The translations under genes and the position numbers were made by a program. The notes below the pieces were generated by a model, which saw only the letters and a list, made by a program, of their open reading frames with translations, did not search any database and was not told the DNA's origin. Positions 14,935 to 28,899 of a DNA stretch of 64,000 nt are shown in pieces (within the stretch, counting starts at the first letter, position 1; every line of letters begins with the position of its first letter). This stretch comes from Microcella sp. (GTDB lineage Bacteria > Actinomycetota > Actinomycetes > Actinomycetales > Microbacteriaceae), in the NCBI RefSeq assembly GCF_019739195.1, contig NZ_JAHHDS010000003.1, positions 2,108,001-2,172,000 of the forward strand, read 5' to 3'.

Positions 14935-17012
14935 GCGCTCTGCCGGGCATCCCCGAGGTGCCGGCGCCCAACCGGCCCTCGGGCGCGGCAAAGCGCCTCG
15001 ACGTGCAGGGCCTGCGGGCGATAGCGGTCGTGCTCGTCGTGGTCTACCATGCGGGCATTCCGCTCAGCGGAGGCTTCGCGGGCGTCGATGTCTTCTTCGT
15101 CATCTCGGGCTTCGTCATCACCCTCATGTTGCAGCGCGAGTGGTTCGCTAACGGTCGCATCAGCCTGCGGCGGTTCTATGCCCGGCGCTTTCTGCGGCTG
15201 ACGCCCGCGCTCGCCGTCGTCGTGGTTGCGACGGTGCTCGCCGCGGCGCTGCTGTCGGTCGGCATGGCGACCACGGCCGCGCAGACCGGGCTCGGCGCCC
15301 TGCTGCTCTCGGCCAACCTCGTGATCGCGCGAACGACGGGCGGTTACTTCGATGCGCCCGCCGAGTCGAATCCTCTGCTCAACATGTGGTCGCTCTCGGT
15401 CGAAGAGCAGTTCTACCTGCTCTTCCCGCTGCTGCTCGTGCTCGGCTGGGTGCTCGCGCGTCGCGGTGGCCCGGCAGCGCGCCGTGCTCCCCTCATCATC
15501 ACGAGCACGGTGCTCGCCGTCTCGTTCGGCGTGGCGATGCTCGTGACCCTGCGCATCATCGTGCACCCCTGGCTCGACCTCGCCTTCGGCTTCTACGGGC
15601 CGGCGGGCCGAGCCTGGGAGTTCGCCGTCGGCGCGGTCATCGCCCTCGTGCTGCCGGTGTTCACCCGCCTGAGCGCATCCCTCGCCACCGCGGCGGGCGT
15701 GCTCGGACTCGCGCTCGTCGGCGTCTCGGCCGTGGTGCTGTCGGCGGCGACGCCGACGCCTGGCCCGACGACACTGCTACCGGTGCTGGGCACGGCGCTT
15801 CTCATCATCGCGGGCTCAGCAGCAGACAACCCCGTCTCGAGGCTGCTCGGCACCCGCCCGATGGTGGCCATCGGCGACCTCTCGTACTCGTGGTACCTCT
15901 GGCACTGGCCGGTGATCGTGTTCGCGGGTCTGCTCGTGCCGAACTCGCCACTCGTCATCCTGGTCGCCGCAGTGCTCTCGCTGCTGCCCGCCCTCGCGTC
16001 GTACCGCTGGGTCGAGCAGCCGTTGCGCGGTTTGCGGCCGGGCACTGCGCGTCGCTGGGCGGCGACGGTCGGCGGGGTTCTCGTGGCACCCCTGCTCGTC
16101 GTCGTGCTCGTGCTCGTCGCTGTCGGGCAGGGCTTCTGGCTGCCGAGCGTGCAGCAGTACCGCGCGCAGATCATCGACCGCCCCGGACACCTGACCCAGG
16201 TGGCCGGCTGCAGCGCGTTCGCCGTGCCGGGTCAGCCGGGCACCGAGCAGTGCACGTGGAACGCCGACGCATCGGGGCCGCCCGCCTACCTGCTCGGCGA
16301 TTCGTTCGCCGACCACCTGAGCGAGGGTCTTGCGATCGCCGCCGCCGAGGCGAATGCGGCGATCACCATGACGACGCAGCGCGGATGCCCGTGGACGGGT
16401 GTCGACGCCACCTTCGAGTCGCTCGGCACGTGGGAGCAGGGCGCCAGATGCCGCGAGGTCATCGAGGCGGCGCTCGCTGCGGTCGCCGATCAGCCGGCGG
16501 GTGTTGTGCTGCTCGCGTTCTCAGACCATTACTTCACGGGTGACGACTTCGCGACGGCCGACGGGTCAGGCGGGTTCACGACCGAGTCGGATGCTCGGCT
16601 CGCGGCCCACGCCCAGTGGTTGCGCGGCGCGGTGTTCGACCTCGAGGCTGCCGGGCACGCGGTCGTGCTCGTGCGGCCCACGCCCAACTTCGATCTCGAC
16701 GCCGAGAGCGGGCCCTACCCGTTCGAGCCAGCGCGGTGCTCGCTGCCCGCGGTCGTCGCGGGCGACTGCGGCCAGAGCATCCCCGAGTCGGTGGCCGCTG
16801 ATCGTCAGGCCGGAATGCTGCGCGTGTTCGAGTCGATCGCTCGCGAGGGCTCGGCGACGTCGGTGCTCGATCTCTGGCCGGCCCTGTGCCCCGACGGACT
16901 GTGCACGACCACCGCGCTCACGCCGTACACGTTCGAAGATGCCCTGCACCTCTCGACGTCGGGCAGCGCGGCAGTCGCCCCACAGCTCGCCGCCGCTCTG
17001 GTCGCAGGCTAG
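14931..17012 (+). CDS. OafA/YrhL-type acyltransferase with SGNH hydrolase domain
   Basis: The 693-residue protein adds acyl (usually acetyl) groups to extracellular glycans. The N-terminal acyltransferase-3 domain has LDVQGLRAIAVVLVVVYHAG with the catalytic His, GVDVFFVISGFVITL, RRFYARRFLRLTPAL, NMWSLSVEEQFYLLFPLLL and SYSWYLWHWPVIVF over about ten membrane helices. After a linker comes an external SGNH domain with YLLGDSFADHL (nucleophile Ser) and late EDALHLSTSGS (Asp/His dyad). GTG 14931 is chosen for its four-base overlap with the preceding TGA; a longer open frame upstream is out of frame with the real DUF2142 gene. It converges with, and overlaps by four bases, the dehydrogenase on the minus strand. 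Confidence 0.93.
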   Translation: MSALPGIPEVPAPNRPSGAAKRLDVQGLRAIAVVLVVVYHAGIPLSGGFAGVDVFFVISGFVITLMLQREWFANGRISLRRFYARRFLRLTPALAVVVVATVLAAALLSVGMATTAAQTGLGALLLSANLVIARTTGGYFDAPAESNPLLNMWSLSVEEQFYLLFPLLLVLGWVLARRGGPAARRAPLIITSTVLAVSFGVAMLVTLRIIVHPWLDLAFGFYGPAGRAWEFAVGAVIALVLPVFTRLSASLATAAGVLGLALVGVSAVVLSAATPTPGPTTLLPVLGTALLIIAGSAADNPVSRLLGTRPMVAIGDLSYSWYLWHWPVIVFAGLLVPNSPLVILVAAVLSLLPALASYRWVEQPLRGLRPGTARRWAATVGGVLVAPLLVVVLVLVAVGQGFWLPSVQQYRAQIIDRPGHLTQVAGCSAFAVPGQPGTEQCTWNADASGPPAYLLGDSFADHLSEGLAIAAAEANAAITMTTQRGCPWTGVDATFESLGTWEQGARCREVIEAALAAVADQPAGVVLLAFSDHYFTGDDFATADGSGGFTTESDARLAAHAQWLRGAVFDLEAAGHAVVLVRPTPNFDLDAESGPYPFEPARCSLPAVVAGDCGQSIPESVAADRQAGMLRVFESIAREGSATSVLDLWPALCPDGLCTTTALTPYTFEDALHLSTSGSAAVAPQLAAALVAG

Positions 17013-18304
17013 GTGCCGGGAATACCGATCACGCGGTAGGTGACGCCCGGCCATGCCTCTGCCGTCGAGACGCGTCGGCCGTCGACGAAGGTGCGGATGC
17101 CCGGCAGCGATGCCGGCGTCAGGTCGCGGTACTCGGCGTGGTCGGCTTGCACGACGGCCGCGTCGACCGGCTCGCCGAGGTGGTAGGGCTGCCAGCCGTA
17201 GCGGGCCAGCTCGTCGTCGGTGTAGAGCGGGTCGTGCACGAACACTTCGGCGCCGCGCTCCCGCAGGGCCGCGACCGCGCCGAAGACGCCGCTGAACGCC
17301 GTTTCTTTGACTCCGCCGCGGTAGGCAGCCCCGAGCACGACGACACGCTGCCCCTGCAGCGAGCCGTGCACGCCTTCGAGCAGGCCGATCGTGTAGTCGG
17401 GCATGCCCGCATTCGCCTCGCGGGCCGCGCGCACGACCGTGGCGGCCGGGTCGTTCCAGAGGTAGAGCCGCGGGTAGACGGGGATGCAGTGGCCGCCGAC
17501 CGCGATGCCCGGCTGGTGGATGTGGCTGTAGGGCTGCGAGTTCGAGGCCTCGATCACCTGGTAGATGTCGATGCCGGCCGTCGCGGCGTACTGCGCGAAC
17601 TGGTTGGCGAGGCCGATGTTGACGTCGCGGTAGGTGGTCTCGGCGAGCTTGGCCATTTCGGCGGCCTCGGCACTGCCGAGATTCCACACGCCGTTGCCGC
17701 GCGGCAGGTCGGGGCGGTCGTCGAAGTCGAGCACCTCTTCGTAGAAGGCGACGGCGCGCGCGGCCCCGGCCTCTGAGAGACCCCCGACGAGCTTCGGGTA
17801 CTTGCGCAGGTCGGCGAAGACACGCCCCGTGAGCACGCGCTCGGGCGAGAACACGAGGTGAAAATCGGTGCCTTCGACGAGCCCTGAGCCCTCTTCGAGC
17901 ATGGGCTTCCAGCGCGTGCGCGTCGTGCCCACCGGCAGGGTCGTCTCATAGGCGACCAGGGTGTCGGCAGTCAGATGCGCTGCGAGGGTGCTCGTGGCGT
18001 CATCCATCCAGCCGAAGTCGGGTCGCGCCTCGTCGTCGACGAAGAGCGGCACGACCAGAACGACCGCGTCGGCCTCCGGTACAGCATCCGCATAGTTCGT
18101 CGTCGCCCGCAGTTTGCCGGCCGGTACGAGTTCGGCGAGCATCTCGGCCAGGTGCGCCTCGCCCGGAAACGGCTCGACCCCCGAGTTGATGAGGTCGACC
18201 GTGGCCTGGTTCACGTCGACGCCGACGACCTCGTGGCCCTTCGAGGCGAACTGCACGGCGAGAGGCAGGCCGATCTTTCCCAGGGCGATGACGGCGATCT
18301 TCAC
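17009..18304 (-). CDS. Nucleotide-sugar 6-dehydrogenase (WbpA/WecC type)
   Basis: UDP-GlcNAc or UDP-ManNAc 6-dehydrogenase-like enzyme making the uronic acid with two NAD. The 431-residue product begins VKIAVIALGKIGLPLAVQF (NAD site), has VVLVVPLFVDDEARPDF, YETTLPVGTT, the UDP-binding SPERVLTGRVFADLRKYPK, AETTYRDVNIGLANQFA with the catalytic Lys/Asn region, and the active-site Cys in GGHCIPVYPRLY. GTG 18304 is preferred because GAGG lies about ten bases upstream. With genes 19556-22265 and 27841 it completes a diacetamido-uronic-acid pathway. It is the last gene of an operon with DUF2304 and GT2 genes. Confidence 0.9.
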   Translation of the reverse strand: MKIAVIALGKIGLPLAVQFASKGHEVVGVDVNQATVDLINSGVEPFPGEAHLAEMLAELVPAGKLRATTNYADAVPEADAVVLVVPLFVDDEARPDFGWMDDATSTLAAHLTADTLVAYETTLPVGTTRTRWKPMLEEGSGLVEGTDFHLVFSPERVLTGRVFADLRKYPKLVGGLSEAGAARAVAFYEEVLDFDDRPDLPRGNGVWNLGSAEAAEMAKLAETTYRDVNIGLANQFAQYAATAGIDIYQVIEASNSQPYSHIHQPGIAVGGHCIPVYPRLYLWNDPAATVVRAAREANAGMPDYTIGLLEGVHGSLQGQRVVVLGAAYRGGVKETAFSGVFGAVAALRERGAEVFVHDPLYTDDELARYGWQPYHLGEPVDAAVVQADHAEYRDLTPASLPGIRTFVDGRRVSTAEAWPGVTYRVIGIPGT

Positions 18305-18367
18305 AAGCGGGTGGTCCTCACGGTTCAGGGGTGGCAGGGGGCGACGGATGCCCGCGAGCACTCGATT

Positions 18368-18745
18368 CTAGGTGCTGGGCTTCTCGGCCAGCCGCGCCTC
18401 GAGCTCGGCGATGCGATCGACAAGGCGTGCTTCGGTCAGAGCGATCTCGCGCGCGAGCTGCGTGTTGGCGCGAGTCAGCTGCACCGAGCGCTTGTACTCA
18501 TTGACCACGTAGATGAGCCCGGCGACGATGGCCAGGTAGAACAGCAGGTCGGCGCCGCGCCCGATGCCGACGAGCGAGGCGAGCCAGCTGAGCAGGCCGG
18601 GCCACAGCACGACGACGACTCCCGAGGCGAGAGCAAGCAGCACGAGCAGTCGGCGAATGGCGAGGTGGCGGGGGCTCGGCGTCGAGCGCACCAGGTAGAC
18701 CGCGATGCCGGCCAAGGCGATGATGAGAATGATCTGAAACCACAT
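18368..18745 (-). CDS. DUF2304 small membrane protein
   Basis: The 125-residue product starts MWFQIILIIALAGIAVYLV, has two further hydrophobic segments (LLVLLALASGVVVVLWP, LLFYLAIVAGLIYVV), and ends in a roughly 45-residue helix with heptad-like hydrophobics (LARANTQ-type to RIAELEARLAE), probably a coiled coil. DUF2304 proteins are commonly encoded next to dolichol-phosphate-mannose-synthase-like GT2 enzymes, as here (24-base gap). The start is set by AAAGGGGG about eight bases upstream of ATG 18745. A partner or anchor for the GT2 is likely (inference). Confidence 0.82.
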   Translation of the reverse strand: MWFQIILIIALAGIAVYLVRSTPSPRHLAIRRLLVLLALASGVVVVLWPGLLSWLASLVGIGRGADLLFYLAIVAGLIYVVNEYKRSVQLTRANTQLAREIALTEARLVDRIAELEARLAEKPST

Positions 18746-18768
18746 AGCGGGTGCCCCCTTTCTTGTGA

Positions 18769-19488
18769 CTAGTTGATGACGAGGTCGACGAGAATGTTGA
18801 TCGAGTTGAGCAGCGACTGCCCCTTGGCCTTCGAGTAGTCGGTGTAGAGCACCTCGACCGGAAACTCGCGCCACGGAAGGCCCGATTTGCCGAGCTGCAC
18901 CACGATCTCGCTCGCGTGAGCCATGCGGTCTTGCTTGAGGTTCACGGCGTGCGCCGCGTCGATGCGCAGCACGCGCAGCCCGTTGTGGGCATCCGTCAGG
19001 GTGAGACCGGTCGTGAGGTTCGTGACCGCGACGGCCGTCTTGAGCACGATCTTCTTGGCGAGACCGGGTTTCGTGCGGTCGTCGAGAAAGCGCGAGCCGA
19101 AGACGATGGCCGCCTGCTCGCGCTCGGCGAGGTCGAGCATGGCGAGCGCGTCGACCACGCGGTGCTGCCCGTCGGCGTCGAACGTGACCAGATAGCGCAC
19201 GCCGGGCAGTGACCGCGCGTAGGCGATGCCGGTCTGCAGCGCGGCACCCTGGCCGAGGTTGTGCGGGTGGCGGATCACGCGCGCGCCTGCCGACCCGGCG
19301 ACCGCGGCCGAGTCGTCGGTCGAGCCGTCGTCGACGCAGATGACCCGCTCGAACTGCTGCAGCAGCTCGCTGATGACGCCGCCGATGACGGTCGCCTCGT
19401 TGTAGAGGGGGATGACGATGGCAGCCTCGGGGCGCCGGTCAGAGCGGGCCGCGGGCGCGGCAGGGGTGGCGTCGGCCATAGGGGCCAT
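18769..19488 (-). CDS. GT2 glycosyltransferase, polyprenyl-phosphate sugar synthase-like
   Basis: The GT-A enzyme of about 239 residues resembles DPM1-type synthases, which load a sugar onto polyprenyl phosphate at the cytoplasmic face. Motifs are AAIVIPLYNEATVIGG, VICVDDGSTDDSA, the metal site TFDADGQHR, FGSRFLDDRTKPG, and TLTDAHNGLRVLR with the catalytic Asp. It lacks C-terminal membrane helices; the neighbouring DUF2304 protein may supply the membrane contact. Two starts are possible, ATG 19488 and ATG 19479. The latter has CACAAT seven bases upstream, as in leaderless genes, so the protein may be three residues shorter. Confidence 0.88.
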   Translation of the reverse strand: MAPMADATPAAPAARSDRRPEAAIVIPLYNEATVIGGVISELLQQFERVICVDDGSTDDSAAVAGSAGARVIRHPHNLGQGAALQTGIAYARSLPGVRYLVTFDADGQHRVVDALAMLDLAEREQAAIVFGSRFLDDRTKPGLAKKIVLKTAVAVTNLTTGLTLTDAHNGLRVLRIDAAHAVNLKQDRMAHASEIVVQLGKSGLPWREFPVEVLYTDYSKAKGQSLLNSINILVDLVIN

Positions 19489-19503
19489 TGTGTCAGAACG
19501 CGA

Positions 19504-19509
19504 TACCCT
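19504..19509 (+). promoter_or_regulatory. -10 box of the N-acetyltransferase operon
   Basis: TACCCT lies 46 bases upstream of the GTG at 19556, giving a leader of about 40 bases. AGAGAGA just before the GTG may serve as ribosome-binding site. This operon therefore seems to have a leader, unlike most of its neighbours. Confidence 0.4.
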
Positions 19510-19555
19510 GGGTCGGCGCGTGCCCGCGCATGACCCCTCAAGAGAGATTGCCCTC

Positions 19556-20176
19556 GTGACCCCATCAGCCGACTCCCGGCACGGCGTTCGCATCGTCGAT
19601 TCGGCCGACGTCGCCGAGAGCGCGCGCATCGGCGCCGGCAGCTCGATCTGGCACCTGGCGCAGGTGCGCGAAGAGGCCGAGCTGGGCGAGAACTGCGTGG
19701 TCGGCCGCGGTGCCTACATCGGCACGGGCGTGCATCTCGGCGACAACTGCAAGGTGCAGAACTACGCGCTCGTCTACGAGCCCGCGCACCTCGAGGCGGG
19801 GGTTTTCATCGGCCCCGCCGTGGTGCTGACGAACGACACCTACCCCCGTGCCGTCAACCCCGACGGCAGCGCCAAGTCGGCCCACGACTGGCAGCCGGTC
19901 GGCGTGACGATTCGTGAGGGCGCCGCGATCGGCGCGCGCGCGGTGTGCGTCGCCCCCGTCGAGATCGGCCGGTGGGCCACGATCGCCGCGGGCAGCGTCG
20001 TGACGAAAGACGTGCCGGCCTTCGCCCTCATGGCGGGGGTGCCCGCACGGCGTCTCGGCTGGGTCGGCAAGGCGGGCGTGCGCCTGATCGAGCAGGATGC
20101 CCGCTGGGTGTGCCCGCAGACGAACGAGATCTACATCGAGCGCGATGGCGTTCTGACCGAGGAGAGCACTCAGTGA
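19556..20176 (+). CDS. UDP-sugar 3-N-acetyltransferase (WbpD/WlbB-like)
   Basis: The 206-residue left-handed beta-helix acetyltransferase has hexapeptide repeats from about residue 16 (SARIGAGSSIWHLAQVREEAE, NCVVGRGAYIGTGVHLGDN, FIGPAVVLTNDTYPRAVN) to about 165. The His in SSIWHLAQV and the NDTYPRA segment are typical of WbpD/WlbB, which acetylate the 3-amino group of UDP-2-acetamido-3-amino-2,3-dideoxy-glucuronate. GTG 19556 follows an AGAGAGA ribosome-binding site. Its stop overlaps the start of the aminotransferase, the enzyme that makes its substrate. Specificity is inferred from this neighbourhood. Confidence 0.88.
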   Translation: MTPSADSRHGVRIVDSADVAESARIGAGSSIWHLAQVREEAELGENCVVGRGAYIGTGVHLGDNCKVQNYALVYEPAHLEAGVFIGPAVVLTNDTYPRAVNPDGSAKSAHDWQPVGVTIREGAAIGARAVCVAPVEIGRWATIAAGSVVTKDVPAFALMAGVPARRLGWVGKAGVRLIEQDARWVCPQTNEIYIERDGVLTEESTQ

Positions 20177-21282
20177 CCGCACCCTTGATTCCCGCAGCCA
20201 AGCCGTTGATCGGCCGCGCCGAGCGCCGTGCCGTCGACCGCGTGCTGCGCTCGGGCATGATCGCGCAGGGCCCCGAGGTGGCCGCGTTCGAGAAAGAGTT
20301 CGGCGCCCACTTCGTGCAGGGCCGCGAGTGCGTCGCCGTCAACAGTGGCACCGCCGGCCAGCACCTGGGCCAGCTCGCCGCGGGTGTCGGCCCGGGCGAC
20401 GAAGTCATCGTGCCGTCGTTCACGTTTGCCGCGACGGGCAACTCGGTCGCGCTCACGGGTGCCACCCCCGTCTTCGTCGACATCGAGCCCGAGACGTTCG
20501 GCCTCGACCCGGCCGCGGTCGAGAAGGCCATCACTCCGCAGACCAAGGGCATCATGCCCGTGCACCTCTACGGCCACCCGGCCCGCATGGTCGAGCTCGA
20601 GGCCCTCGCAAAGAAGCACGACCTCGAGATCTTCGAAGACGCGGCGCAAGCGCACGGTGCTTCTCTCGACGGTCGCCCCGTCGGCACCTGGGGCCGCTTC
20701 GCGATGTTCAGCCTCTACCCGACCAAGAACATGACCTCGGGCGAGGGTGGCATGGTTGCGTGCGACAGCCCTGAGCTGGTGCGCGCCGTGAAGCTGCTGC
20801 GCAACCAGGGCCAAGAGATTCAGTACCACAATGAGGTCATCGGCTTCAATGCGCGCATGACCGACATTCACGCCGCGATCGGGCGCGTGCAGCTGACCAA
20901 GATCGACCGCTGGACGGCGACGCGCCAGCAGAACGCCGCCACCCTCAGCGCCGGGCTGAGCGGCTTGGCGGGCATCACCCCGCCGGTGACCGCGCCGGGT
21001 GCCGTGCACGTCTTCCACCAGTACACGATCCGCGTCGCCGACGACCGCGATGGCTTCGCGAAAGCGTTGCGCGACGAGCACGGCGTGGGCTCGGGCGTCT
21101 ATTACCCGGTGCCGAACCACCGTCTGCCGTCGCTCGCGCCCTACGCGCCCGGGCTCGACCTGCCCGAGACTGAGCGGGCTGCGCGCGAAGTCGTGTCTCT
21201 GCCCGTGCATCCGTCGCTGACGAAGCGCGACCTCGACCGCATCATCGCCGCCGTGCAGTCGCTCGCGAAGGCGGGCGCCTGA
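20173..21282 (+). CDS. DegT/DnrJ/EryC1/StrS aminotransferase (WbpE/WlbC-like)
   Basis: PLP-dependent sugar aminotransferase, 369 residues. It shows AAKPLIGRAERRAVDRVLRS, CVAVNSGTAGQHLGQLAAG at the phosphate-binding loop, PSFTFAATGNSV, FEDAAQAHGA with the PLP-binding Asp, and the catalytic Lys in FSLYPTKNMTSGEGGM. The family subtype with GFNARMTDIHAAIGRVQL is that of sugar 3-aminotransferases. It sits between the acetyltransferase (GTGA overlap) and the Gfo/Idh/MocA dehydrogenase (TGATG overlap), the order expected for oxidation, amination and acetylation at C3 of UDP-GlcNAcA. Confidence 0.92.
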   Translation: MTAPLIPAAKPLIGRAERRAVDRVLRSGMIAQGPEVAAFEKEFGAHFVQGRECVAVNSGTAGQHLGQLAAGVGPGDEVIVPSFTFAATGNSVALTGATPVFVDIEPETFGLDPAAVEKAITPQTKGIMPVHLYGHPARMVELEALAKKHDLEIFEDAAQAHGASLDGRPVGTWGRFAMFSLYPTKNMTSGEGGMVACDSPELVRAVKLLRNQGQEIQYHNEVIGFNARMTDIHAAIGRVQLTKIDRWTATRQQNAATLSAGLSGLAGITPPVTAPGAVHVFHQYTIRVADDRDGFAKALRDEHGVGSGVYYPVPNHRLPSLAPYAPGLDLPETERAAREVVSLPVHPSLTKRDLDRIIAAVQSLAKAGA

Positions 21283-22265
21283 TGACCTTGCGCGCCGGTC
21301 TCGTCGGCGTCGGCATGATGGGCCGGCACCACGCGCGCGTGCTGCGCGAGCTTGACGGTGTCGACCTCGTCGCGATCGCTGACCCGGGGGGCGACCCGCA
21401 CGGTGTTGCCGGTTCGCTGCCGATTCTGCCCGACATCGACGCGGTCATCGCTGAAGGCGTCGACATCGCGGTGGTCGCCGTGCCCACGCGCTTTCATGAG
21501 GATGCTGCGCTCGCGCTCGCCGCCGCCGGCGTGCACACGCTCGTCGAGAAGCCCATCGCCGACACCGTCGAGGCGGGGCAGCGCATGGTCGACGCCTTCG
21601 AGAACGCGGGCCTCGTCGGCGCGGTCGGGCACATCGAGCGCTTCAACCCCGCCCTGCAAGAGATGCGCCGCCGTATTGCTGCGGGCGAGCTCGGCGAGGT
21701 CTACCAGGTCGTTACGCGCCGCCAGGGCCCGTTTCCGTCGCGCATCGCCGACGTCGGGGTCGGCAAAGACCTGGCGAGCCACGACGTCGACCTCACCGCG
21801 TGGGTCGCGCAGAGCGACTACGCGAGCGTCTACGGCCAGACCGCCCACAAGTCGGGCCGCGAATATGAAGACATGATCATCGCCTCGGGTCGACTGGCGA
21901 ATGGGGTTGTCGTCAACCACCTCGTCAACTGGTTGAGCCCGATGAAAGAGCGCGTCACGATCGCCACGGGCGAGGCGGGCGCGCTCGTCGCCGACACCGC
22001 GACGGGCGACCTCACCTTCTACGCCAATGGCACGTTTCCGCTCGAGTGGGAGTCGGTCACGGCTTTCCGCGGGGTCAGCGAAGGCGACATGATCAGGTAC
22101 GCGTTCCCCAAGCGCGAGCCGCTGCGTGTCGAGCACGAGGCGTTCCGCGACGCGGTGTTGGGCCACGAGACCGACCTTGTGACCATGCGCCAGGGGCTGC
22201 GCACGCTCGCGGTTGTCGAGGGCGTTCTGCAGTCGGCGCGAACGGGCCAGTCGGTCACCTTCTGA
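21282..22265 (+). CDS. Gfo/Idh/MocA oxidoreductase (WbpB/WlbA-like UDP-sugar 3-dehydrogenase)
   Basis: NAD-dependent dehydrogenase of 327 residues. The Rossmann motif is GLVGVGMMGRHHARVL; the catalytic Lys is in THTLVEKPIADTVEAG-like sequence (VEKPIAD). VGHIERFNPALQEM and KDLASHDVDLTAWVAQS follow, the latter holding the family's catalytic His/Asp region. GHIERFNPA is seen in UDP-GlcNAc/GlcNAcA 3-dehydrogenases. It is co-transcribed with acetyltransferase and aminotransferase genes, overlapping the latter by one base, and only two bases precede the next glycosyltransferase. Confidence 0.9.
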   Translation: MTLRAGLVGVGMMGRHHARVLRELDGVDLVAIADPGGDPHGVAGSLPILPDIDAVIAEGVDIAVVAVPTRFHEDAALALAAAGVHTLVEKPIADTVEAGQRMVDAFENAGLVGAVGHIERFNPALQEMRRRIAAGELGEVYQVVTRRQGPFPSRIADVGVGKDLASHDVDLTAWVAQSDYASVYGQTAHKSGREYEDMIIASGRLANGVVVNHLVNWLSPMKERVTIATGEAGALVADTATGDLTFYANGTFPLEWESVTAFRGVSEGDMIRYAFPKREPLRVEHEAFRDAVLGHETDLVTMRQGLRTLAVVEGVLQSARTGQSVTF

Positions 22266-22267
22266 CC

Positions 22268-23413
22268 ATGCGGGTCATTCTCGCGAGCCGCATCTTCGCG
22301 CCCGAGCCGGCGGCAGCCTCGTTCCGGCTCGCCGCACTCGCGCACGAGCTCGCGGCTCGCGGGCACGAGGTCGAGGTGCTCACGAGTCGGCTGCCCGCCG
22401 GTGTGTCGGGCGAGACGCCCGCGGGCGTGCGCGTGCGCCGTGCGCGCGTGCTGCGTGACCGCACGGGAGCGGTGCGTGGTTATGTGCCCTACCTGAGCTT
22501 CGATATTCCGCTGTTCTTCCGCCTGCTCGCGGTGCGCCGAGCCGACGCCTATGTGGTCGAGCCGCCGCCGACGACGGGCCTGGCGGTACTCGTGGCGACG
22601 GCGCTGCTGAGGCGCCCCTTCGCTTACTACGCGGCCGACATTCTCGCCGACGCGGCCGCGAGCGCGGGCAGCCCGGCCGTCGTCGTGCGCGTCGTCAGGT
22701 GGATGGAGCGCACCGTCTGGCGCCGCGCCGCTCGGGTGCTCTCGGTCTCGGCCACGGTGACGACGCGGCTCGTCGAGCTCGGCGTGCCAGCGGCGCGTAT
22801 CGACGAGATCGGCAATGGCATCGACACGGCGGTGTTCACTCCCGATGGCCCGGCCCGCCCCTCGACGCCGCCCTACGCGCTCTATGCGGGCACGGCGTCT
22901 GAGGTGCACGGTGCGGGCGTGTTCGTCGAGGCGATCGCTCAGGTCGAGGGGCTGCGGCTCATGTTCGTGGGCGCAGGATCAGAGGTTGCGCAGTTACGTC
23001 GTCGCGCCGACGAGATCGCCCCAGGGCGCGTCGAGTTTCACGCGACGGTCGCCCCCGACGAGGTCGCGCAGCTGCTGCGCGGCTCGACACTCGCCCTCGC
23101 GAGCGTCAAGCCCGTCGGTGGCTACCAGTTCGCCTTTCCGACCAAGATGTACGCGGCGGCGGCGAGCGGCGCACCCCTGCTGTTCGCGGGGGAGGGGCCG
23201 GGTGCGACGTTCGCCGAGCACGCCCCGCTCGGCACCGCGGTGCCCCACGAGGCGGGTGCTGTCGCTCGAGCGCTCGACGCGGCGGTGCGCTCGCCGGCCG
23301 GGTCAGCCGCGAGGCGCGAGCAGGCCCGCTGGGCGGTCGAGACCGTTTCGCTCTCGGTGGTTGCCCAACGTGCGGCCGACGCAGTCGAGGGCCTCAGCCA
23401 GCCGAGACCGTAA
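22268..23413 (+). CDS. GT4 glycosyltransferase (WcaI/colanic-type)
   Basis: GT-B transferase of 381 residues, starting MRVILASRIFAPEPAAASFR, a variant of the GT4 acceptor-loop motif. It continues AYVVEPPPTTGLAVL, FAYYAADILADAA, and in the donor domain RIDEIGNGIDTAVFTP, ALYAGTASEVHGAG, MFVGAGSEVAQL, and the late FPTKMYAAAASGAPLLFAGEG with the donor-binding acidic site. It resembles WbuB-type N-acetylfucosamine or uronate transferases. Two bases separate it from the diacetamido-sugar pathway genes, so it may transfer that uronic acid (inference). Confidence 0.86.
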   Translation: MRVILASRIFAPEPAAASFRLAALAHELAARGHEVEVLTSRLPAGVSGETPAGVRVRRARVLRDRTGAVRGYVPYLSFDIPLFFRLLAVRRADAYVVEPPPTTGLAVLVATALLRRPFAYYAADILADAAASAGSPAVVVRVVRWMERTVWRRAARVLSVSATVTTRLVELGVPAARIDEIGNGIDTAVFTPDGPARPSTPPYALYAGTASEVHGAGVFVEAIAQVEGLRLMFVGAGSEVAQLRRRADEIAPGRVEFHATVAPDEVAQLLRGSTLALASVKPVGGYQFAFPTKMYAAAASGAPLLFAGEGPGATFAEHAPLGTAVPHEAGAVARALDAAVRSPAGSAARREQARWAVETVSLSVVAQRAADAVEGLSQPRP

Positions 23414-23469
23414 TGGCGGTGCGTTGCTGGCGGGCATGCCACCAGCAGTGCGGCGTCTCAGCGGCCCGA

Positions 23470-23475: not shown

Positions 23476-23481
23476 CGAGGC

Positions 23482-24705
23482 ATGGGTGTGCGCGAGGGGC
23501 TGAGCGCGGCCGCACAACGTGTGCTGCCGGCCTCGGTGCTGAGCGTCGTCGAGCCGCGATTGAGCGCTCTGCCCGATCGCATCGGCGCTCGACTCAACCC
23601 CGCGAAGTACGCGGCCATGCCAGAGGGCCCCGCCCAGCCGCTCGTGCTCGGCGAGGGCGACGCCCGCCTCGTCATCGGGGTGCTCAACGTGGCCGGTCAG
23701 GCCTACCACTGGGCCCGTGCGGTGGAATCTCGCCCCGACCGCTCTGCGCTGAGCCTCGTCGTCGACAGTCCTGATGGTTTTCGCTTCGCCGCGCATCGGT
23801 CGGTGCCGCGGTTGCGTGCCTTCGGGTCGAGCGACTGGCGGCGCGCCGAGTTCGCGGCCATCGTCGATCAGGCGACCCACGTGATCATCGAGTCGGCGCA
23901 TCCGCTGTTCGGTCCGCTGTTCCGTCGTGACATCGTGCGCGAGGTTCGGGCGCTGCGGCGCCACGGCATCAGAGTGGCGATCGTCGCCCACGGTTCTGAT
24001 GTGCGTGACGTGCGCGCGCACCTCGCGCGCGAACCGCACTCGCCCTTTGGCAGTGCGGCGCTGGTGCCGAACGCGCGCGAGCTCGACCGCGCGGCGGCGC
24101 GGGCACGACGGGCCATCGAGGTGCTTCAGGTGCCGGTGTTCGGGTCGACTCCGGGCGTTCAGCTCGATCTGCCGCAGGCGACCTGGCTGCCCGTGGCGAT
24201 CGACCCCGATGCCTGGGCGACCGAGCGCGAGCCGATGGGTGCGGCCGTGCCCGTGGTGGTGCATGCTCCGAGCCGGGCGGGGTTCAAGGGTTCTGAGGTG
24301 GCCGACGAGGTGCTCGGTCGACTGCATCGCGAGGGAGTGATCGATTACCGGCGTGTCGACGGCGTCACCCACGGCGACATGGCCGCCGTCTACGAGTCGG
24401 CCGACATCGTGATCGACTCTTTGCGCATGGGCGGCTACGGTGTCGCCGCCTGCGAGGCGATGGCGGCAGGCCGGCTGGTGCTGTCGTATGTCAATGAGAG
24501 GTCGCGTGAAGTGGTCGCGGCTTCGGCGGGCGAGCAGCCGCCGATCTGGCCGGCCGATGCGGCGAGCCTCGAGAGCGCCGTGCGCGCCGTGCTCGACGAC
24601 CGCGATGCGGCTCGCGACTTCGCGGCGCGCGGCCCCGCTTTCGTGCGGCGGTGGCATGACGGCCGGGCGAGTGCTGACGCTCTCGAGTCGTTCCTCGCCT
24701 CGTGA
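23482..24705 (+). CDS. Unclassified GT-B-like glycosyltransferase, paralogue 1 of 3
   Basis: 407 residues. The general build is GT-B: LVIGVLNVAGQAYHWARAV at the N-terminal strand, VAIVAHGSDVRDVRAHLA, then QATWLPVAIDPDAW, VVVHAPSRAGFKGSEV, MAAVYESADIVIDSLRMG, and YGVAACEAMAAGRLVLSYV, equivalent to the donor-binding acidic motif of GT4. It ends RWHDGRASADALESFLAS. Genes 24728 and 32002 share HGSD/YGSE, ATWLP, KG, ADIV and YGVAA-EAMAAGR with it. No classical GT4 lysine/EX7E set is obvious to me. It lies downstream of the diacetamido-uronate genes; the substrate is unknown. Confidence 0.75.
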   Translation: MGVREGLSAAAQRVLPASVLSVVEPRLSALPDRIGARLNPAKYAAMPEGPAQPLVLGEGDARLVIGVLNVAGQAYHWARAVESRPDRSALSLVVDSPDGFRFAAHRSVPRLRAFGSSDWRRAEFAAIVDQATHVIIESAHPLFGPLFRRDIVREVRALRRHGIRVAIVAHGSDVRDVRAHLAREPHSPFGSAALVPNARELDRAAARARRAIEVLQVPVFGSTPGVQLDLPQATWLPVAIDPDAWATEREPMGAAVPVVVHAPSRAGFKGSEVADEVLGRLHREGVIDYRRVDGVTHGDMAAVYESADIVIDSLRMGGYGVAACEAMAAGRLVLSYVNERSREVVAASAGEQPPIWPADAASLESAVRAVLDDRDAARDFAARGPAFVRRWHDGRASADALESFLAS

Positions 24706-24714
24706 CCGCACTCC

Positions 24715-24720
24715 TAGACT
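24715..24720 (+). promoter_or_regulatory. -10 box of the second paralogous GT gene
   Basis: TAGACT ends seven bases before ATG 24728. The 22-base gap after the previous stop thus holds an independent leaderless-type promoter. Confidence 0.5.
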
Positions 24721-24727
24721 CGAGGTC

Positions 24728-25912
24728 ATGACGGCGGCGCTGAAGTGGATGGCGGGCCGCCTGTTGCGGCTGCTTCCCGAGGCGCTGCGCGGCCGGGTGC
24801 TGCCGGGCCGGTACGACTATCGAGTCGCCGACATTCCGCCGCCGATCGAGCCGCCGTCGACCCCCGTGCGGCTGTTCATCGCCCCGGTCAACTACGCGGG
24901 CCAAGCGCACGAGTGGGGTCGTGCCGCCGCGCAGAACCTGCCGGGGGTGGGCGCCGTCAACCTGGCGTTCCGCACGCCCGACGACTTCACGCACGCGAGC
25001 GATGCTGTGGTGCCGGTGGGGGTCTGGGCGGCGTCGAGCCGCTGGCAACGAGAGTTGCGTCGCACGGTGCTGGGGGGCTTCACGCACGCGATCGTCGAGG
25101 CTCAGCGCTGGCCGTTCGGCGCGCCGCTCGATGAGTCGGTGCACGGCCAGGTGCAGTCGATGCTGCGCGCCGGCCTGAGGGTGGCGATGCTCTGCCACGG
25201 CAGCGACATCAGGCTGCCCAGCCGTCACGCCGCGCTGAACCCCGACTCGCCGTTCGCGGGGGCGCTCGCGACGACCCCCGACCTCGAGCGCACGGCACGC
25301 GAGTCACGGCGCCTGCTCGACCGCCTCGGCCTGCCGGTCTTCGTCTCGACCGCCGACCTGCTCATCGACGCACCCGAGGCCACCTGGCTGCCGGTCGTGA
25401 TCGACGTCGAGGCATGGCGGGTCGAGGCTCGGGTGATGCAGGCAGAACGGCCCGTCGTCGTGCACGCGCCCAGCAAGGGCGCCATCAAGGGCAGCGACCT
25501 CGTCGACCCGGTCGCGCAGCGATTGCACGACGAAGGCCTCATCGAGTACCGCCGCATCGAGGGCGTGCCGCACGCGCAGATGCGCGAGGTGTATCGCGGG
25601 GCCGACATCGTGCTCGATCAGTTTCGCATCGGCGACTACGGCGTTGCGGCGTGCGAAGGCATGGCCGCGGGGCGGCTCGTCGTCGGGCACGTCAACCCGG
25701 GTGTGCGCCGCGCTGCGCTCGAGGCGTCGGGCATCGAGCTGCCGATCGTCGACGCGACGGGCGCGACTCTCGAGGCGGTGCTGCGCGGCATCGTCGCCGA
25801 CCGAGACCGCGCGGCCGCTGTGGCGGCGACGGGTGCCGAGTTCGTGCGCGTACTGCACGATGGTCGCCGCTCGGCCGACGTGCTGCGGCCGTTCTTGCTC
25901 GGCGCGTCTTAG
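24728..25912 (+). CDS. Unclassified GT-B-like glycosyltransferase, paralogue 2 of 3
   Basis: 394 residues. It opens with a basic amphipathic helix (MAGRLLRLLPEALRGRVLPG) that could sit on the membrane, then VRLFIAPVNYAGQAHEWGRA, VAMLCHGSDIRLPSRHAAL, VFVSTADLLIDAPEATWLP, VVHAPSKGAIKGSDLV, EYRRIEGVPHAQMREVYRG, ADIVLDQFRIGDYGVAACEG and HDGRRSADVLRPFL. It is closer to paralogue 3 (32002) than to paralogue 1, as judged by LPSRH, D-PEATWLP, KG-D and DQFRIG. It converges, with a 15-base gap, on the minus-strand half-transferase gene. Confidence 0.75.
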   Translation: MTAALKWMAGRLLRLLPEALRGRVLPGRYDYRVADIPPPIEPPSTPVRLFIAPVNYAGQAHEWGRAAAQNLPGVGAVNLAFRTPDDFTHASDAVVPVGVWAASSRWQRELRRTVLGGFTHAIVEAQRWPFGAPLDESVHGQVQSMLRAGLRVAMLCHGSDIRLPSRHAALNPDSPFAGALATTPDLERTARESRRLLDRLGLPVFVSTADLLIDAPEATWLPVVIDVEAWRVEARVMQAERPVVVHAPSKGAIKGSDLVDPVAQRLHDEGLIEYRRIEGVPHAQMREVYRGADIVLDQFRIGDYGVAACEGMAAGRLVVGHVNPGVRRAALEASGIELPIVDATGATLEAVLRGIVADRDRAAAVAATGAEFVRVLHDGRRSADVLRPFLLGAS

Positions 25913-25927
25913 CTTGCTCGCAGTGCC

Positions 25928-26431
25928 TTAGGCCTCGAGCGACTCACGCAGGCCGACGACCGCCGACCGGGTGTCGTAGTAGGCCTCGCGCACGTGCCGT
26001 CGGCGCAGAGCAGTCGCAGCGACAATCACTCCGGCGCTGTCGACGGCGATGGCGATGTCGGCGCGGCGCAACGCTGCCCGTGCCTCGGTCGACCGGCGCA
26101 CCCGGCGGGCGAAGACCCGGCCGGCGTCGAGGGGACCCATCGAGTTGAGCAGGCGACCGAGTGGGCTGCCCGAGAGCCGTCGGCGCAGGCGCTCGCCGCC
26201 GAAGCGCCGCAGCAGCGCGTCGGCGCGACCGGGGTCGACGGCGCTGAGGTCGAGGTGCTCGCCGCGGCGCAGCGGGCGAGCGGGCATCCCGACCGAAATG
26301 ATGTCGACTGCCTCTGCGCCCTCGGGGCGGGCGAGAACCTCGCCGAGCCGCGAGCTCTCGGTGGCGAGCGATGAGCCGTGGCCCGACTCGTGCCCGCTGC
26401 CGTAGAGCACGACGACGCGCAGCCCGGTCAT
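25928..26431 (-). CDS. Hypothetical protein, possible glycosyltransferase N-terminal half
   Basis: 167 residues with no family I can name. The N-terminus LRVVVLYGSGHESGHGSSLA is strand-loop like. Residues 130-160 (ALRRADIAIAVDSAGVIVAA, then EAYYDTRSAVVGL) look like the end of a GT4 acceptor domain, in which a buried strand is followed by Tyr-Asp. No donor domain follows. The middle is Arg/Leu-rich (RRRLSGSPLGRLLNSMGP). The ATG at 26431 overlaps the TGA of the upstream glycosyltransferase (ATGA), so it is translated with it. It may be an accessory subunit or a split enzyme. Confidence 0.6.
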   Translation of the reverse strand: MTGLRVVVLYGSGHESGHGSSLATESSRLGEVLARPEGAEAVDIISVGMPARPLRRGEHLDLSAVDPGRADALLRRFGGERLRRRLSGSPLGRLLNSMGPLDAGRVFARRVRRSTEARAALRRADIAIAVDSAGVIVAATALRRRHVREAYYDTRSAVVGLRESLEA

Positions 26432-27774
26432 CGTGCGGCCTCCGACTCGGTGACGGCCCGCAGGGCCTGGATGCGCGGCCGCAGCTGCTCGTCGCGGGCG
26501 AACTGCCGCGCCCACTGCTGTGTGGCCGCGATGCTCTCGGGTGTTTGGGCGGCGGCACTCTCGCCGGTGGCGATGAGCGCGTGCGCGAACTGCTCGACTC
26601 CGACTGCCTCGACGCCGAAGCGGGCGGGGTGGTCGGCGAGCACGCTCGTCGCCGCGGTGACGGGGTCGTGCAGGGCGGCGATCGGCAGGCCGCTGGCCGC
26701 GTATTCGAAGACCTTGCCGCTCGTGACGAAGGGGCTGCGGCTGATGATGAGCAGCAGGGCATCGAACGAGCGGTAGACCTCTGACACCGCCGTCTTGCTC
26801 ACGGGCCCCTCGTAGCTGACCCCGTCGGCACGGTAGGCGTCGAGCAGTTCGGCCACGGCCGGGTCGGGTTCGGAGAAGTGCCCGAGCCTGCCGCGCACGA
26901 CGAGGCGCGACCGCGCGAGCAAGGGCGAGCGGGTGCGCGCGAGCCGCCACGCATCGAGGGTCTCGCGCAGCGGAATGGGCCCGTAGATCGTGCCGAGGTA
27001 GCCGAACACGAGGCCCGCCTCGGCGTCGGGTGCGCGGTCGCGGTCGGTCTGCAAGAACTCGGGGTCGAAGCCGTTGGCGACGACGTGGAAGTCGTCGGCC
27101 TTCGACGGATGCTCGCCAGCATGCCAGTCGCGAATCGGTGCATTGACGAACCAGGCTTCGGCGCTGCGCGCAAACATGCGGCTCTCGAGCCGGCTCGATC
27201 GGCTGAGGCGCGGGGCGGTGCGGGCGCCCGTGTAGACGTCGAGGTGCCAGGCGTCGCGGTGGTCCATGACGTAGGGCACTCCGTGGCGCCGGTGCAGGTG
27301 CCACCCGACGGCGAAGTCGACGTTGGGGTTGGCCGACCCGACGACGAGGTCGACGGGGTGCTCGCGGTGAATGGCGTCGGCGGCGGTGATGAGCGGCTTC
27401 TTCCAGCCGCCGTAGCTGCGCTCCGGAAACGAGAACCAGGCCGGAATCCAGCGCAGGGCCGTCCACAGCAGAGCCGAGTAGACCCTCAAGCGCGACCAGT
27501 TCGCCAGGTTGTCGTCGCTGCGTTCGGCGTCGAACGGTATGCGCACGACGCTCACGCGCGGGTCGATCGACGCCTCTGACTGCGGGTCGCTGCCGGTGAG
27601 CCGCTCGAAGGTTTCGCGCGTAGTCGTGAGCACGGTGACGCGCCAACCGTCGCGCGCGAAGGCATTGGCGGTAGCGAGAGCGCGGTACATGCCGGCGCTG
27701 CGCGAGGGCGGATAGCCCCACGCGACGTAGAGCACGTGCGGTGCGGCGGCGGGGTCGGTGCGGGGGGCAGACAT
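26428..27774 (-). CDS. GT4-like glycosyltransferase
   Basis: 448 residues. The N-terminal motif HVLYVAWGYPPSRSAGMYRA resembles the P-P-x-x-G acceptor loop of WbuB-like GT4 enzymes. VDLVVGSANPNVDF and YVMDHRDAWHLD follow; the donor domain has VANGFDPEFLQ, LVFGYLGTIYGPIPL, and FVTSGKVFEYAASGLPIAAL with the acidic donor-binding Glu. The ATG at 27774 is eight bases after TAGGAT on the minus strand; the longer frame is only shadow of the divergent 2-epimerase gene. It is first in a two-gene unit with the half-transferase-like gene. Confidence 0.85.
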   Translation of the reverse strand: MSAPRTDPAAAPHVLYVAWGYPPSRSAGMYRALATANAFARDGWRVTVLTTTRETFERLTGSDPQSEASIDPRVSVVRIPFDAERSDDNLANWSRLRVYSALLWTALRWIPAWFSFPERSYGGWKKPLITAADAIHREHPVDLVVGSANPNVDFAVGWHLHRRHGVPYVMDHRDAWHLDVYTGARTAPRLSRSSRLESRMFARSAEAWFVNAPIRDWHAGEHPSKADDFHVVANGFDPEFLQTDRDRAPDAEAGLVFGYLGTIYGPIPLRETLDAWRLARTRSPLLARSRLVVRGRLGHFSEPDPAVAELLDAYRADGVSYEGPVSKTAVSEVYRSFDALLLIISRSPFVTSGKVFEYAASGLPIAALHDPVTAATSVLADHPARFGVEAVGVEQFAHALIATGESAAAQTPESIAATQQWARQFARDEQLRPRIQALRAVTESEAAR

Positions 27775-27782
27775 CGCCCCCC

Positions 27783-27788
27783 ATCCTA
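27783..27788 (-). promoter_or_regulatory. -10 box of the minus-strand GT4 gene
   Basis: TAGGAT, eight bases before ATG 27774. It faces the divergent epimerase promoter 40 bases away. Confidence 0.45.
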
Positions 27789-27827
27789 GGCTTCGGGCCC
27801 CGCCCGGGGCGTGCGCCGACGCCTCGA

Positions 27828-27833
27828 TAGACT
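27828..27833 (+). promoter_or_regulatory. -10 box of the 2-epimerase gene
   Basis: TAGACT ends seven bases before ATG 27841, a leaderless-type arrangement that also fixes the start codon. Confidence 0.55.
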
Positions 27834-27840
27834 CGACCGC

Positions 27841-28899
27841 ATGCGGGTTCTGAGTGTCGTGGGCGCGCGCCCGCAGTTCGTCAAGCTGGCGCCGATCTCT
27901 CACGCGATGGATGCGGCGGGCGGCATCGAGCACATCGTCGTGCACACCGGCCAGCATTACGACCCGCTCATGAGCGACGTGTTCTTTCGCGACCTGTCGA
28001 TTCGCCCGCCCGACGAGAACCTCGGGGTGGGATCGGGGGCGCACGGCGCGCAGACGGGCGCGATGCTCGCCGGTCTCGAGCCGCTGATTCAGCAGCACGC
28101 CCCCGACTGGGTGCTCGTCTACGGCGACACCAACTCGACCCTCGCGGCCGCCGTGGCTGCGGTCAAGCTGCATGTGCCGGTCGCGCATCTCGAAGCGGGG
28201 CTGCGCTCGTTCAACCGTCGCATGCCCGAAGAGCACAATCGCGTGCTCACCGACCATGCCTCTGACCTGCTGCTCGCGCCGACCGAGGTGGCCATGCAGC
28301 ACCTCGCGCATGAGGGGTTGGCAGAGCGCAGCGTTCTGGTCGGCGATGTCATGACCGACGTGCTCTACGCCACGCGCGATCGCGTGCTCGCCGAGGGTCT
28401 GCCGCTGCCCGAGGGCGTCGAGGCGGGGAAATACCACGTCGCCACGCTGCACCGACCCGACAACACCGACGACCCCGAGCGCCTCGCCGCGATTCTCGAC
28501 CAGCTCGCCGCGTTGGCGCATCCTGTGCTGCTGCTCGTGCACCCGCGCCTGCGCGCCCTCGCTGCCCAGCACGGCATCACGCTCGATCAGGGCGCGATTC
28601 GTGCGATCGAGCCCTTGCCCTACCCCGAACTCGTCGCCGCGGTGAGCCGCAGCGCCGGCGTCATCACCGACTCGGGGGGCCTGCAGAAAGAGGCTTTTCT
28701 GCTGCGCGTGCCGTGCACGACCGTGCGCCCCGAGACCGAGTGGGTCGAAACGGTCGAGCTGGGCTGGAACGTGCTCGTGAGCGACGAGCTCGGGGCGCTG
28801 CGGGCCGCGGTCGAGCGCCCGGCGCCCGCACCCACCGATGCGACCCCCTACGGCACCGGCCAAGCCGCTGCCGCGGTCGTGCGCGCACTGCGCGGCTGA
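27841..28899 (+). CDS. wecB: Non-hydrolysing UDP-HexNAc 2-epimerase (WecB/WbpI family)
   Basis: The 352-residue enzyme inverts C2 of UDP-GlcNAc or related sugars. Motifs: VLSVVGARPQFVKLAPI, HTGQHYDPLMSD, VYGDTNSTLAAA, HLEAGLRSFNRRMPEEHNRV, TLHRPDNTDDPE, and SGGLQKEAFLLRVPC. The FNRRMPEE-NR and TVRPETEWVETVELGWN segments are more like the WbpI group, which acts on UDP-GlcNAc(3NAc)A, than like classical WecB. With the dehydrogenase, aminotransferase and acetyltransferase in this window it would yield UDP-ManNAc(3NAc)A. The subfamily call is from memory of motifs and needs a tree. Confidence 0.9.
   Translation: MRVLSVVGARPQFVKLAPISHAMDAAGGIEHIVVHTGQHYDPLMSDVFFRDLSIRPPDENLGVGSGAHGAQTGAMLAGLEPLIQQHAPDWVLVYGDTNSTLAAAVAAVKLHVPVAHLEAGLRSFNRRMPEEHNRVLTDHASDLLLAPTEVAMQHLAHEGLAERSVLVGDVMTDVLYATRDRVLAEGLPLPEGVEAGKYHVATLHRPDNTDDPERLAAILDQLAALAHPVLLLVHPRLRALAAQHGITLDQGAIRAIEPLPYPELVAAVSRSAGVITDSGGLQKEAFLLRVPCTTVRPETEWVETVELGWNVLVSDELGALRAAVERPAPAPTDATPYGTGQAAAAVVRALRG

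Follow-up and report, generated by a model that had tools for sequence, protein, structure and literature searches.

Locus and predicted pathway

We analyzed a 64,000-nucleotide stretch of a Microcella sp. genome (2.88 Mb, 100% complete), bases 2108001–2172000 of contig 3, hereafter the window, in which five sugar nucleotide genes fit within 11.9 kb. A UDP-sugar 6-dehydrogenase (6DH) occupies 17009..18304 on the minus strand, from a GTG start at 18304 to position 17009, the end of its stop codon. Two further minus-strand genes, for a DUF2304 protein and a glycosyltransferase of family 2 (GT2), separate it from a plus-strand triad: an N-acetyltransferase with a WlbB/WbpD-like left-handed beta helix (NAT; 19556..20176), a DegT-family pyridoxal phosphate-dependent aminotransferase (AT; 20173..21282), and a Gfo/Idh-family UDP-sugar 3-dehydrogenase (3DH; 21282..22265). 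The overlaps are 4 bases between NAT and AT and 1 base between AT and 3DH. The fifth gene, also on the plus strand, encodes a probable WbpI-type UDP-GlcNAc3NAcA 2-epimerase (EPI; 27841..28899); it lies 5.6 kb beyond the triad, separated from it by three glycosyltransferase-like genes and a stretch coding on the minus strand, and so outside the overlapping operon. All five frames are open, and profile searches of the window proteins gave family matches far above chance.

From these sequences, we predict that the five enzymes convert UDP-GlcNAc to UDP-2,3-diacetamido-2,3-dideoxy-glucuronic acid (UDP-GlcNAc3NAcA) and then, by epimerization at C-2, to the mannuronic form, UDP-ManNAc3NAcA, a product assignment that we consider very likely to be right. 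UDP-ManNAc3NAcA would then supply an acidic residue to a surface or wall glycan assembled by the neighboring glycosyltransferases. The assignment draws on gene content, orthology to a locus with the Streptomyces utr layout, co-occurrence, and signature residues, from which we infer the reactions, their order, and the polymer. The original prediction had described five genes of these families, three of them in one overlapping operon, as a complete set for UDP-2,3-diacetamido-mannuronic acid, and this was borne out by the positions and overlaps above and by the EPI, NAT, co-occurrence, orthology, and residue evidence below.

Orthology to a locus with the Streptomyces utr layout

The closest system with a known product is utr of Streptomyces. 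In the sections available of its description (PMC13274773; Cell 2025), nuclear magnetic resonance (NMR) assigned ManNAc3NAcA and GlcNAc3NAcA to the wall polymer of S. griseus and GlcNAc3NAcA alone to that of S. antibioticus. The same sections propose utrA as the aminotransferase, utrB as an oxidase, utrD as the 6-dehydrogenase, utrJ as the N-acetyltransferase, and utrH as the 2-epimerase, in a pathway that the authors term speculative, and name ribosomal protein L27 as an anchor. Four Streptomyces-sized genomes of one genus hold a window-type 3DH, in three cases at 9–20 kb from L27 and in G230 far off. In G252, one strand carries AT, 3DH, a GT2 bearing a TarS linker domain, and 6DH, and the opposite strand carries EPI and NAT; L27 lies ~4.5 kb beyond the stretch read. 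This is the layout published for S. griseus utr. Identities between the window proteins and those of G252 are 58% for AT, 63% for 3DH, 66% for both NAT and EPI, and 70% for 6DH. Consistent with the S. antibioticus pattern, two Streptomyces-sized genomes, G082 and G166, lack an EPI match at 1e-70.

Through the layout of G252, the assignment of the sugar draws on orthologues in a type of locus whose product is known, in addition to family names. As all five proteins are 58–70% identical to those of a locus laid out like utr, and the utr sugar is known by NMR, the route is also not new in Actinomycetota, where earlier hints of such sugars came from Cutibacterium (PMC11094747 and PMC7913060, as far as their available text goes). 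Among the literature matches listed on Microbacteriaceae wall polymers, nothing concerned a diacetamido-uronic sugar.

The 2-epimerase

EPI (PF02350, 310 bits) is the sole Epimerase_2 match of the genome (PF02350, E 0.001). Its best match in PDB is the Thermus thermophilus UDP-GlcNAc3NAcA 2-epimerase 8sxv, at 350 bits; 4neq scored 251 and Escherichia coli WecB (1f6d) 128. According to the available part of PMC10622841, UDP-GlcNAc 2-epimerases have Arg, Leu/Met, and His/Gln where the T. thermophilus enzyme has Trp307, Ala18, and Tyr96. In this numbering, the window EPI has Trp307 and Tyr96, which the same source links to the UDP-GlcNAc3NAcA substrate, with Leu at the Ala18 position, and thus two of the three signature residues; twelve residues of the active and effector sites that this source lists are conserved. 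The same Trp/Leu/Tyr set was present in all 38 locus copies of EPI at 60% identity or more, the G252 copy included. Below that identity, nine of 11 copies were Ala-Tyr-Trp and two were of the Arg type, E. coli WecB, with Arg and His, being one of these.

We weighed whether EPI could instead be a plain UDP-GlcNAc 2-epimerase, supplying ManNAc or ManNAcA with no tie to the triad. Its NCBIfam label is that of WecB (TIGR00236, 267 bits, cut-off 210), and Leu at position 18 is typical of UDP-GlcNAc epimerases in the account cited above. Nonetheless, EPI carries Trp307 instead of Arg and Tyr96 instead of His/Gln, matches the diacetamido enzyme at 350 bits against 128 for WecB, and does not group with WecB, which falls far outside the EPI group in the tree. 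On these grounds, an identity as WecB was rejected, and a plain UDP-GlcNAc epimerase is very unlikely.

Acetyltransferase and aminotransferase

The nearest solved hexapeptide acyltransferase to NAT is WlbB (3mqg), at 140 bits, with the runner-up at 75. AT (PF01041, 398 bits) has its Lys in the motif YPTKNM. Its best PDB match is 2oga (280 bits), which we take to be a DesV-type enzyme, and WbpE ranks sixth at 234 bits; in a tree of few rows, AT adjoins WbpE-type rows (support 91).

A related triad was seen on a plasmid of Streptomyces sp. NBC_00984 (L106, 6369–10008), where a window-type 3DH (53% identity) and AT (55%) lie beside a fusion of a hexapeptide acyltransferase and a phosphopantetheine-binding domain. 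NUDIX, FAD, and TauD-type genes are also present, with no 6DH within 9 kb, and the region looks like a small natural-product cluster employing the same 3-amino-sugar triad.

The 3-dehydrogenase

The 3DH has a PF01408 domain and a GFO_IDH_MocA_C domain. Its best NCBIfam model is NF040723, an equivalog for the archaeal UDP-GlcNAc 3-dehydrogenase, at 201 bits and under the cut-off of 450. The same model came top for the Salinibaculum 3DH and two actinobacterial plasmid 3DHs, with 183–246 bits for the four, all under 450; the archaeal L105 protein likewise had only 246. Going by the model's name, we take UDP-GlcNAc to be the substrate of its founding protein. Three WbpB-type proteins had no NCBIfam match at 1e-10. 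A hidden Markov model (HMM) built from them gave 4 bits for the window 3DH and 29 for WlbA stretches, and an HMM of the window clade gave −1 to 8 bits for the WbpB type, 58–80 for WlbA stretches, 67 for inositol dehydrogenase, 90 for GnnA, and 135 for the archaeal protein. In a tree from a quick search, with partial WlbA rows and some long branches, the 3DH stood apart from the WbpB and WlbA rows. We class it as not of the WbpB/WlbA kind on this sequence evidence, within the UDP-sugar 3-dehydrogenases, to which its best curated model belongs. The original prediction had named as grounds against itself an EPI that groups with WecB and an oxidoreductase that falls outside the UDP-sugar 3-dehydrogenases; neither was observed.

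The best PDB sequence match is GnnA (7bvj, 78 bits), the UDP-GlcNAc 3-dehydrogenase of Acidithiobacillus, which has the same fold as the window 3DH but only 33% identity over 168 residues. GnnA and GnnB serve lipid A. A predicted structure of the 3DH (pLDDT, the predicted local distance difference test, 87) did not decide between types, the GnnA and WlbA folds tying at Z 32.6 and 32.4. An inositol dehydrogenase was rejected because the best curated model is a UDP-GlcNAc 3-dehydrogenase (201 versus 97 bits) and the neighbors are sugar nucleotide enzymes.

The 6-dehydrogenase and its altered active site

The 6DH (TIGR03026, 300 bits, cut-off 190) has the motif GGHCIPVYP and a Thr at the usual Asn site. 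It is one of two nucleotide-sugar 6-dehydrogenases in the genome (PF03721 above cut-off); the other, at C3:2101126, is 6.4 kb away from the window. Across 67 distinct aligned rows, the active-site Cys, Lys, Thr, and Glu were conserved in all 67. Also conserved in 15/15 ordinary 6DHs (WbpA, TviB, WecC, Cap5O, UDP-glucose dehydrogenase [UGDH], and others) were an Asp four positions beyond the Cys and an Asn four positions beyond the Lys, whereas in the 52 6DHs of the window kind the Asp was always Tyr and the Asn was Thr (48) or Gly (4, haloarchaeal). In human UGDH this Asp is Asp280, which according to the available part of PMC3184952 coordinates the catalytic water; there, replacing it with Asn is detrimental, and the catalytic Cys turns towards Asn224. 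This altered site was the one surprise of the analysis. One possible reading is that the 3-acetamido group is already present on the substrate; drift is another.

NCBIfam models separate 6DH types poorly (for a WbpA, too, the archaeal UDP-ManNAc model ranks first once the subfamily model is set aside), so we relied on a tree, for which 39 of the 67 rows were chosen by hand. The Tyr-kind 6DHs formed a single archaeal-actinobacterial clade (100/97; 100% of 200 bootstrap trees), four haloarchaeal rows included, that is sister to WbpA/TviB (98/97); a single clade needs one change only. The tree thus places the window 6DH outside the WbpA/TviB clade, with two active-site residues changed.

The types of 6DH and 3DH also went together. 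Across 120 loci, wherever a typed 3DH had a 6DH with the GG[HS]C motif no more than 12 kb away, Tyr-kind 6DHs paired with the window type in 48/48 and Asp-kind ones with the WbpB type in 4/4. Neither this 48/48 nor the 52/52 above represents independent events, because the rows come from related genomes. Of 65 frames matched by the 6DH profile in these loci, four that lacked this motif were omitted (in L046, L051, L117, and L173); at G041, which has an Asp-type 6DH 6.5 kb from the 3DH besides a Tyr-type one, the nearer was counted. Among twelve further plasmid regions, this test picked up neither gene in L171 and L172 and no 6DH in L162, and the WlbA-type 3DHs of L167, L169, and L170, with Asp-type 6DHs, stand outside the 4/4 count. 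The L173 region, on an Azospirillum ramasamyi plasmid, encodes at 8957–10561 a 534-aa Gfo/Idh-hexapeptide acetyltransferase fusion adjoining a WbpA-like, Asp-type 6DH; the fusion fell under the cut-offs of both 3DH types, and a WlbA-type Gfo/Idh protein lies further away.

With a 3DH outside the WbpB/WlbA rows, a 6DH outside the WbpA/TviB clade, and the order NAT-AT-3DH of two haloarchaeal clusters, the set does not fit the label "WbpA-B-E-D-I-type" that the original prediction gave it. The observation is real and the product was very probably read right, but the type was mislabelled, and the route is known in outline from Streptomyces.

Co-occurrence across genomes

We then considered how the genes co-occur in 60 genomes of the family, the window's own included. 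The 3DH was present in 11/60 at 56–100% identity, the next value down being 35%. At E up to 1e-60, 6DH was found in 13/60 (all 11 with 3DH, plus G005 and G044), EPI in six, all within the 11, and NAT in 18, nine within the 11. The 49 family genomes without 3DH accordingly had no EPI match at 1e-60 and 6DH in two. Nine family genomes without a window-type 3DH hold NAT at 59–69% identity (G002, G006, G022, G037, G045, G052, G054, G055, and G057); there it may serve a second 3-amino-sugar route, and in G045, G055, and G057 another Gfo/Idh protein (29–33%) and DegT enzymes lie near it. In G027 (L008; genome of 1.4 Mb), one in-frame stop interrupts 3DH and two interrupt NAT, and 6DH is split, which suggests either decay of the cluster or errors in the assembly.

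Across 296 genomes of the phylum, 18 had 3DH (1e-45), 14 had 6DH (1e-90), and 13 had both; EPI (1e-70) was found in 68, including 11 of the 18 with 3DH. In G099 and G182, two of the five genomes that have 3DH but no 6DH at 1e-90, a 6DH piece of 42–55% identity lies beside 3DH, cut by the contig end. The fourteenth 6DH genome, G353, has a 34% 3DH-like protein, a 44% AT, and a 37% NAT within 10 kb, and in three distant genomes (3DH at 47–50%) 3DH, 6DH, and EPI are neighbors.

By 3DH, we also examined named loci, the best 80 of 171 relatives. The nearest in this set, from which close records may be missing, were an actinobacterial metagenome-assembled genome (MAG; 95%), MAGs labelled Microbacterium (91%) and Microbacteriaceae (89%), and Microcella (86%). 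At 60% identity or more, AT was present in 79 and NAT in 76 of the 80; 73 had the order NAT-AT-3DH on one strand and eight the run 6DH-NAT-AT-3DH. Among the 67 with both 10-kb flanks, 28 had 6DH (65% or more), 28 had EPI (60% or more), and 16 had both.

Such gaps could mean that the route ends earlier, at a neutral or gluco sugar: the triad would yield UDP-GlcNAc3NAc, or the set UDP-GlcNAc3NAcA only, with EPI, 6DH, or both serving another branch. The S. antibioticus polymer is a precedent, with GlcNAc3NAcA only (PMC13274773, available sections). Five of the 11 family genomes with 3DH have no EPI match at 1e-60, G221 and G317 have 3DH and no close 6DH, and on the Streptomyces plasmid above, 6DH is absent from the 9 kb around AT, 3DH, and the NAT-like gene. 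For the window itself, however, the only Epimerase_2 protein of the genome bears the signature Trp, and no family genome without 3DH has EPI at 1e-60, so we regard an early end as unlikely.

Other observations weigh against a five-enzyme route to UDP-ManNAc3NAcA. Leu replaces the signature Ala18 in all 38 EPI copies, that of G252 included. Even the activity of 6DH is presumed, as the enzyme has no counterpart of the Asp by which UDP-glucose dehydrogenase holds its catalytic water. G252 is tied to utr by layout, and utrE, F, G, and I were not identified in it. In G221 and G317 (3DH at 60–61%, at C13:7163 and C26:52457) and G089 (3DH at 40%), the best 6DH match is only 27–37% identical, and G005 has a Tyr-type 6DH with no 3DH match at all, which also counts against a strict tie between the two. 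The stretches read in the three distant genomes gave no AT match and a NAT-like match of only 37–40%. G014 and G051 carry AT, 3DH, 6DH, and EPI (L120–L122) with no NAT match at 1e-20 and would require another N-acyltransferase, or a free amine. Neither 6DH nor EPI was present within 10 kb in 27 of the 67 named loci with both flanks. Among five haloarchaeal regions with a window-type 3DH, EPI stands beside 3DH only in Salinibaculum, and in two further haloarchaeal EPI regions the other four genes are not annotated.

Order of steps

We suspect that 3-amination precedes 6-oxidation here. In the order to which we lean, 3DH would oxidize C-3 of UDP-GlcNAc, AT aminate, NAT acetylate, 6DH oxidize C-6 of the resulting UDP-GlcNAc3NAc, and EPI act last. 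We give this order about an even chance; our higher confidence applies to the product. The strict Gram-negative order would lead to the same product and differs in order only: 6DH would make UDP-GlcNAcA, 3DH would oxidize UDP-GlcNAcA, and AT, NAT, and EPI would follow, the 3DH and 6DH differences being lineage drift on an unchanged substrate. That the 6DH clade is sister to WbpA/TviB, which are UDP-GlcNAc 6-dehydrogenases, and not to UDP-ManNAc dehydrogenases (98/97) speaks for it, while the 3DH, top on a UDP-GlcNAc 3-dehydrogenase model and far from WbpB, speaks for amination first; the fold, which fails to separate GnnA from WlbA, also leaves room for the Gram-negative order. The covariation of 6DH and 3DH types (48/48 and 4/4, though not independent) runs counter to drift. 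G005 retains a Tyr-type 6DH without a 3DH match, and therefore 6DH may not need a 3-aminated substrate, whereas G221 and G317 retain 3DH without a close 6DH. Genomes with 3DH and no 6DH bear on both orders, and their follow-up left our estimates unchanged, with the Gram-negative order plausible at a shade under even. A third order, with EPI before 6DH and UDP-ManNAc3NAc oxidized last, was dropped because the same 6DH occurs in genomes without an EPI match, where it must take a gluco substrate.

With amination first as the preferred order, actinobacteria and haloarchaea could share a second diacetamido-uronic route, in which the 3-acetamido group is put on UDP-GlcNAc first and C-6 is oxidized later by a 6DH that lacks the Asp (Tyr instead) and Asn and is adapted to a 3-acetamido substrate. 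We hold this broader proposal tentatively, as somewhat less probable than not; if true, 3DH and 6DH would have moved together between both domains. A search of the literature collection at hand found no paper on step order or on the archaeal 3-dehydrogenase. The points of most interest are thus the step order and the odd 6-dehydrogenase, whose altered site is a testable puzzle within a textbook enzyme family and makes pathway order outside Gram-negative bacteria a question.

Genomic surroundings

The five genes lie in a large surface-glycan locus with a LytR-CpsA-Psr (LCP) protein, dTDP-sugar (rhamnose-type) genes, and a two-part ABC exporter. An NDP-glucose 4,6-dehydratase-like gene is at 3021–4016 on the minus strand, followed by a dTDP-sugar 3,5-epimerase at 4705–5385, a nucleotidyltransferase at 5382–6245, and the exporter at 6249–7834. 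The locus also holds two more ABC-ATPase proteins, several glycosyltransferases, a DUF2142 membrane protein, an acyltransferase-SGNH protein, and O-antigen-ligase-like frames. The three glycosyltransferase-like genes between the triad and EPI, all on the plus strand, comprise a GT4 enzyme (22268..23413, by Pfam), a group 1-like protein (23482..24705, by Pfam, with its start at 23413 or 23482), and a weak match with an uncertain start (24674..25912; PF13524, 21 bits, under the cut-off of 25). Three genome matches to the teichoic-acid-polymerase family PF04464 lie ~170 kb past the window. This setting of LCP protein, rhamnose-type genes, ABC exporters, and glycosyltransferases agrees with the teichuronic-type polymer that the original prediction proposed, and the glycan may be of this kind.

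The minus-strand genes between 6DH and NAT encode the DUF2304 protein (18368..18745; PF10066, 81 bits), with no part in the sugar route as far as shown, and the GT2, a PpgS-like polyprenyl-phosphate sugar synthase (18769..19479, with its start at 19479 or 19488; NF058614, 260 bits, under the cut-off of 370). These genes (18368–19488) recur near the triad in the named loci, GT2 (60% or more) in 48/80 and DUF2304 (35% or more) in 46/80. Further along, 35596–40002 holds a tandem pair of proteins with CWB2 cell-wall-binding repeats, whose ligands in other bacteria are wall polymers. Also within the surface-glycan region, 41488–42804 encodes a HipA-like protein (PF07804, 161 bits) that may be the kinase of a toxin-antitoxin system.

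Comparison with known systems

The utr locus of S. griseus and S. antibioticus, which builds a teichuronic-acid-like polymer on wall teichoic acid (PMC13274773, available sections), shares all five enzyme classes with the window. The utr-layout locus runs AT-3DH-GT-6DH with NAT apart, whereas the window runs NAT-AT-3DH. Rhamnose-type genes and ABC exporters also set the window apart from utr, and its proteins scanned with Pfam, which do not cover every gene, showed no TarS linker domain. In the same sections, diacetamido-uronic acids belong to the Streptomyces wall polymer that is the receptor for umbrella toxins, and the authors propose that polymer variation decides which species these toxins affect. 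In many Microbacteriaceae and their neighbors, judging from the best 80 of 171 relatives, the gene set could serve as a marker for a diacetamido-uronic sugar, and the presence or absence of the 2-epimerase would predict manno versus gluco forms.

Compared with Wbp of Pseudomonas aeruginosa and Wlb of Bordetella, the predicted product and the NAT and EPI families are the same, but the 3DH is of a different kind and the 6DH is in the sister clade, with Asp changed to Tyr and Asn to Thr. Gram-negative plasmid loci (Pseudomonas, Sulfitobacter, Limimaricola, Massilia, Diaphorobacter, and Sphingomonas) have the order 6DH-3DH-NAT-AT, as against NAT-AT-3DH in the window, and a Deinococcus locus runs 3DH-NAT-AT with 6DH absent. 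We would thus place the window set among the actinobacterial members of an archaeal/actinobacterial group that makes the sugar of Wbp/Wlb with another 3DH and an altered-site 6DH.

On the archaeal side, the Natronorubrum and Salinibaculum plasmid clusters, the latter by open frames, run NAT-AT-3DH-6DH with a 6DH of the same clade. Of the other haloarchaeal regions, two have 6DH adjoining 3DH and Haloferax has none in the stretch. Salinibaculum has EPI nearby and the same best 3DH model, but its 3DH is only 32% and its AT 44% identical, and its NAT, at 36%, is less alike than the Gram-negative NAT.

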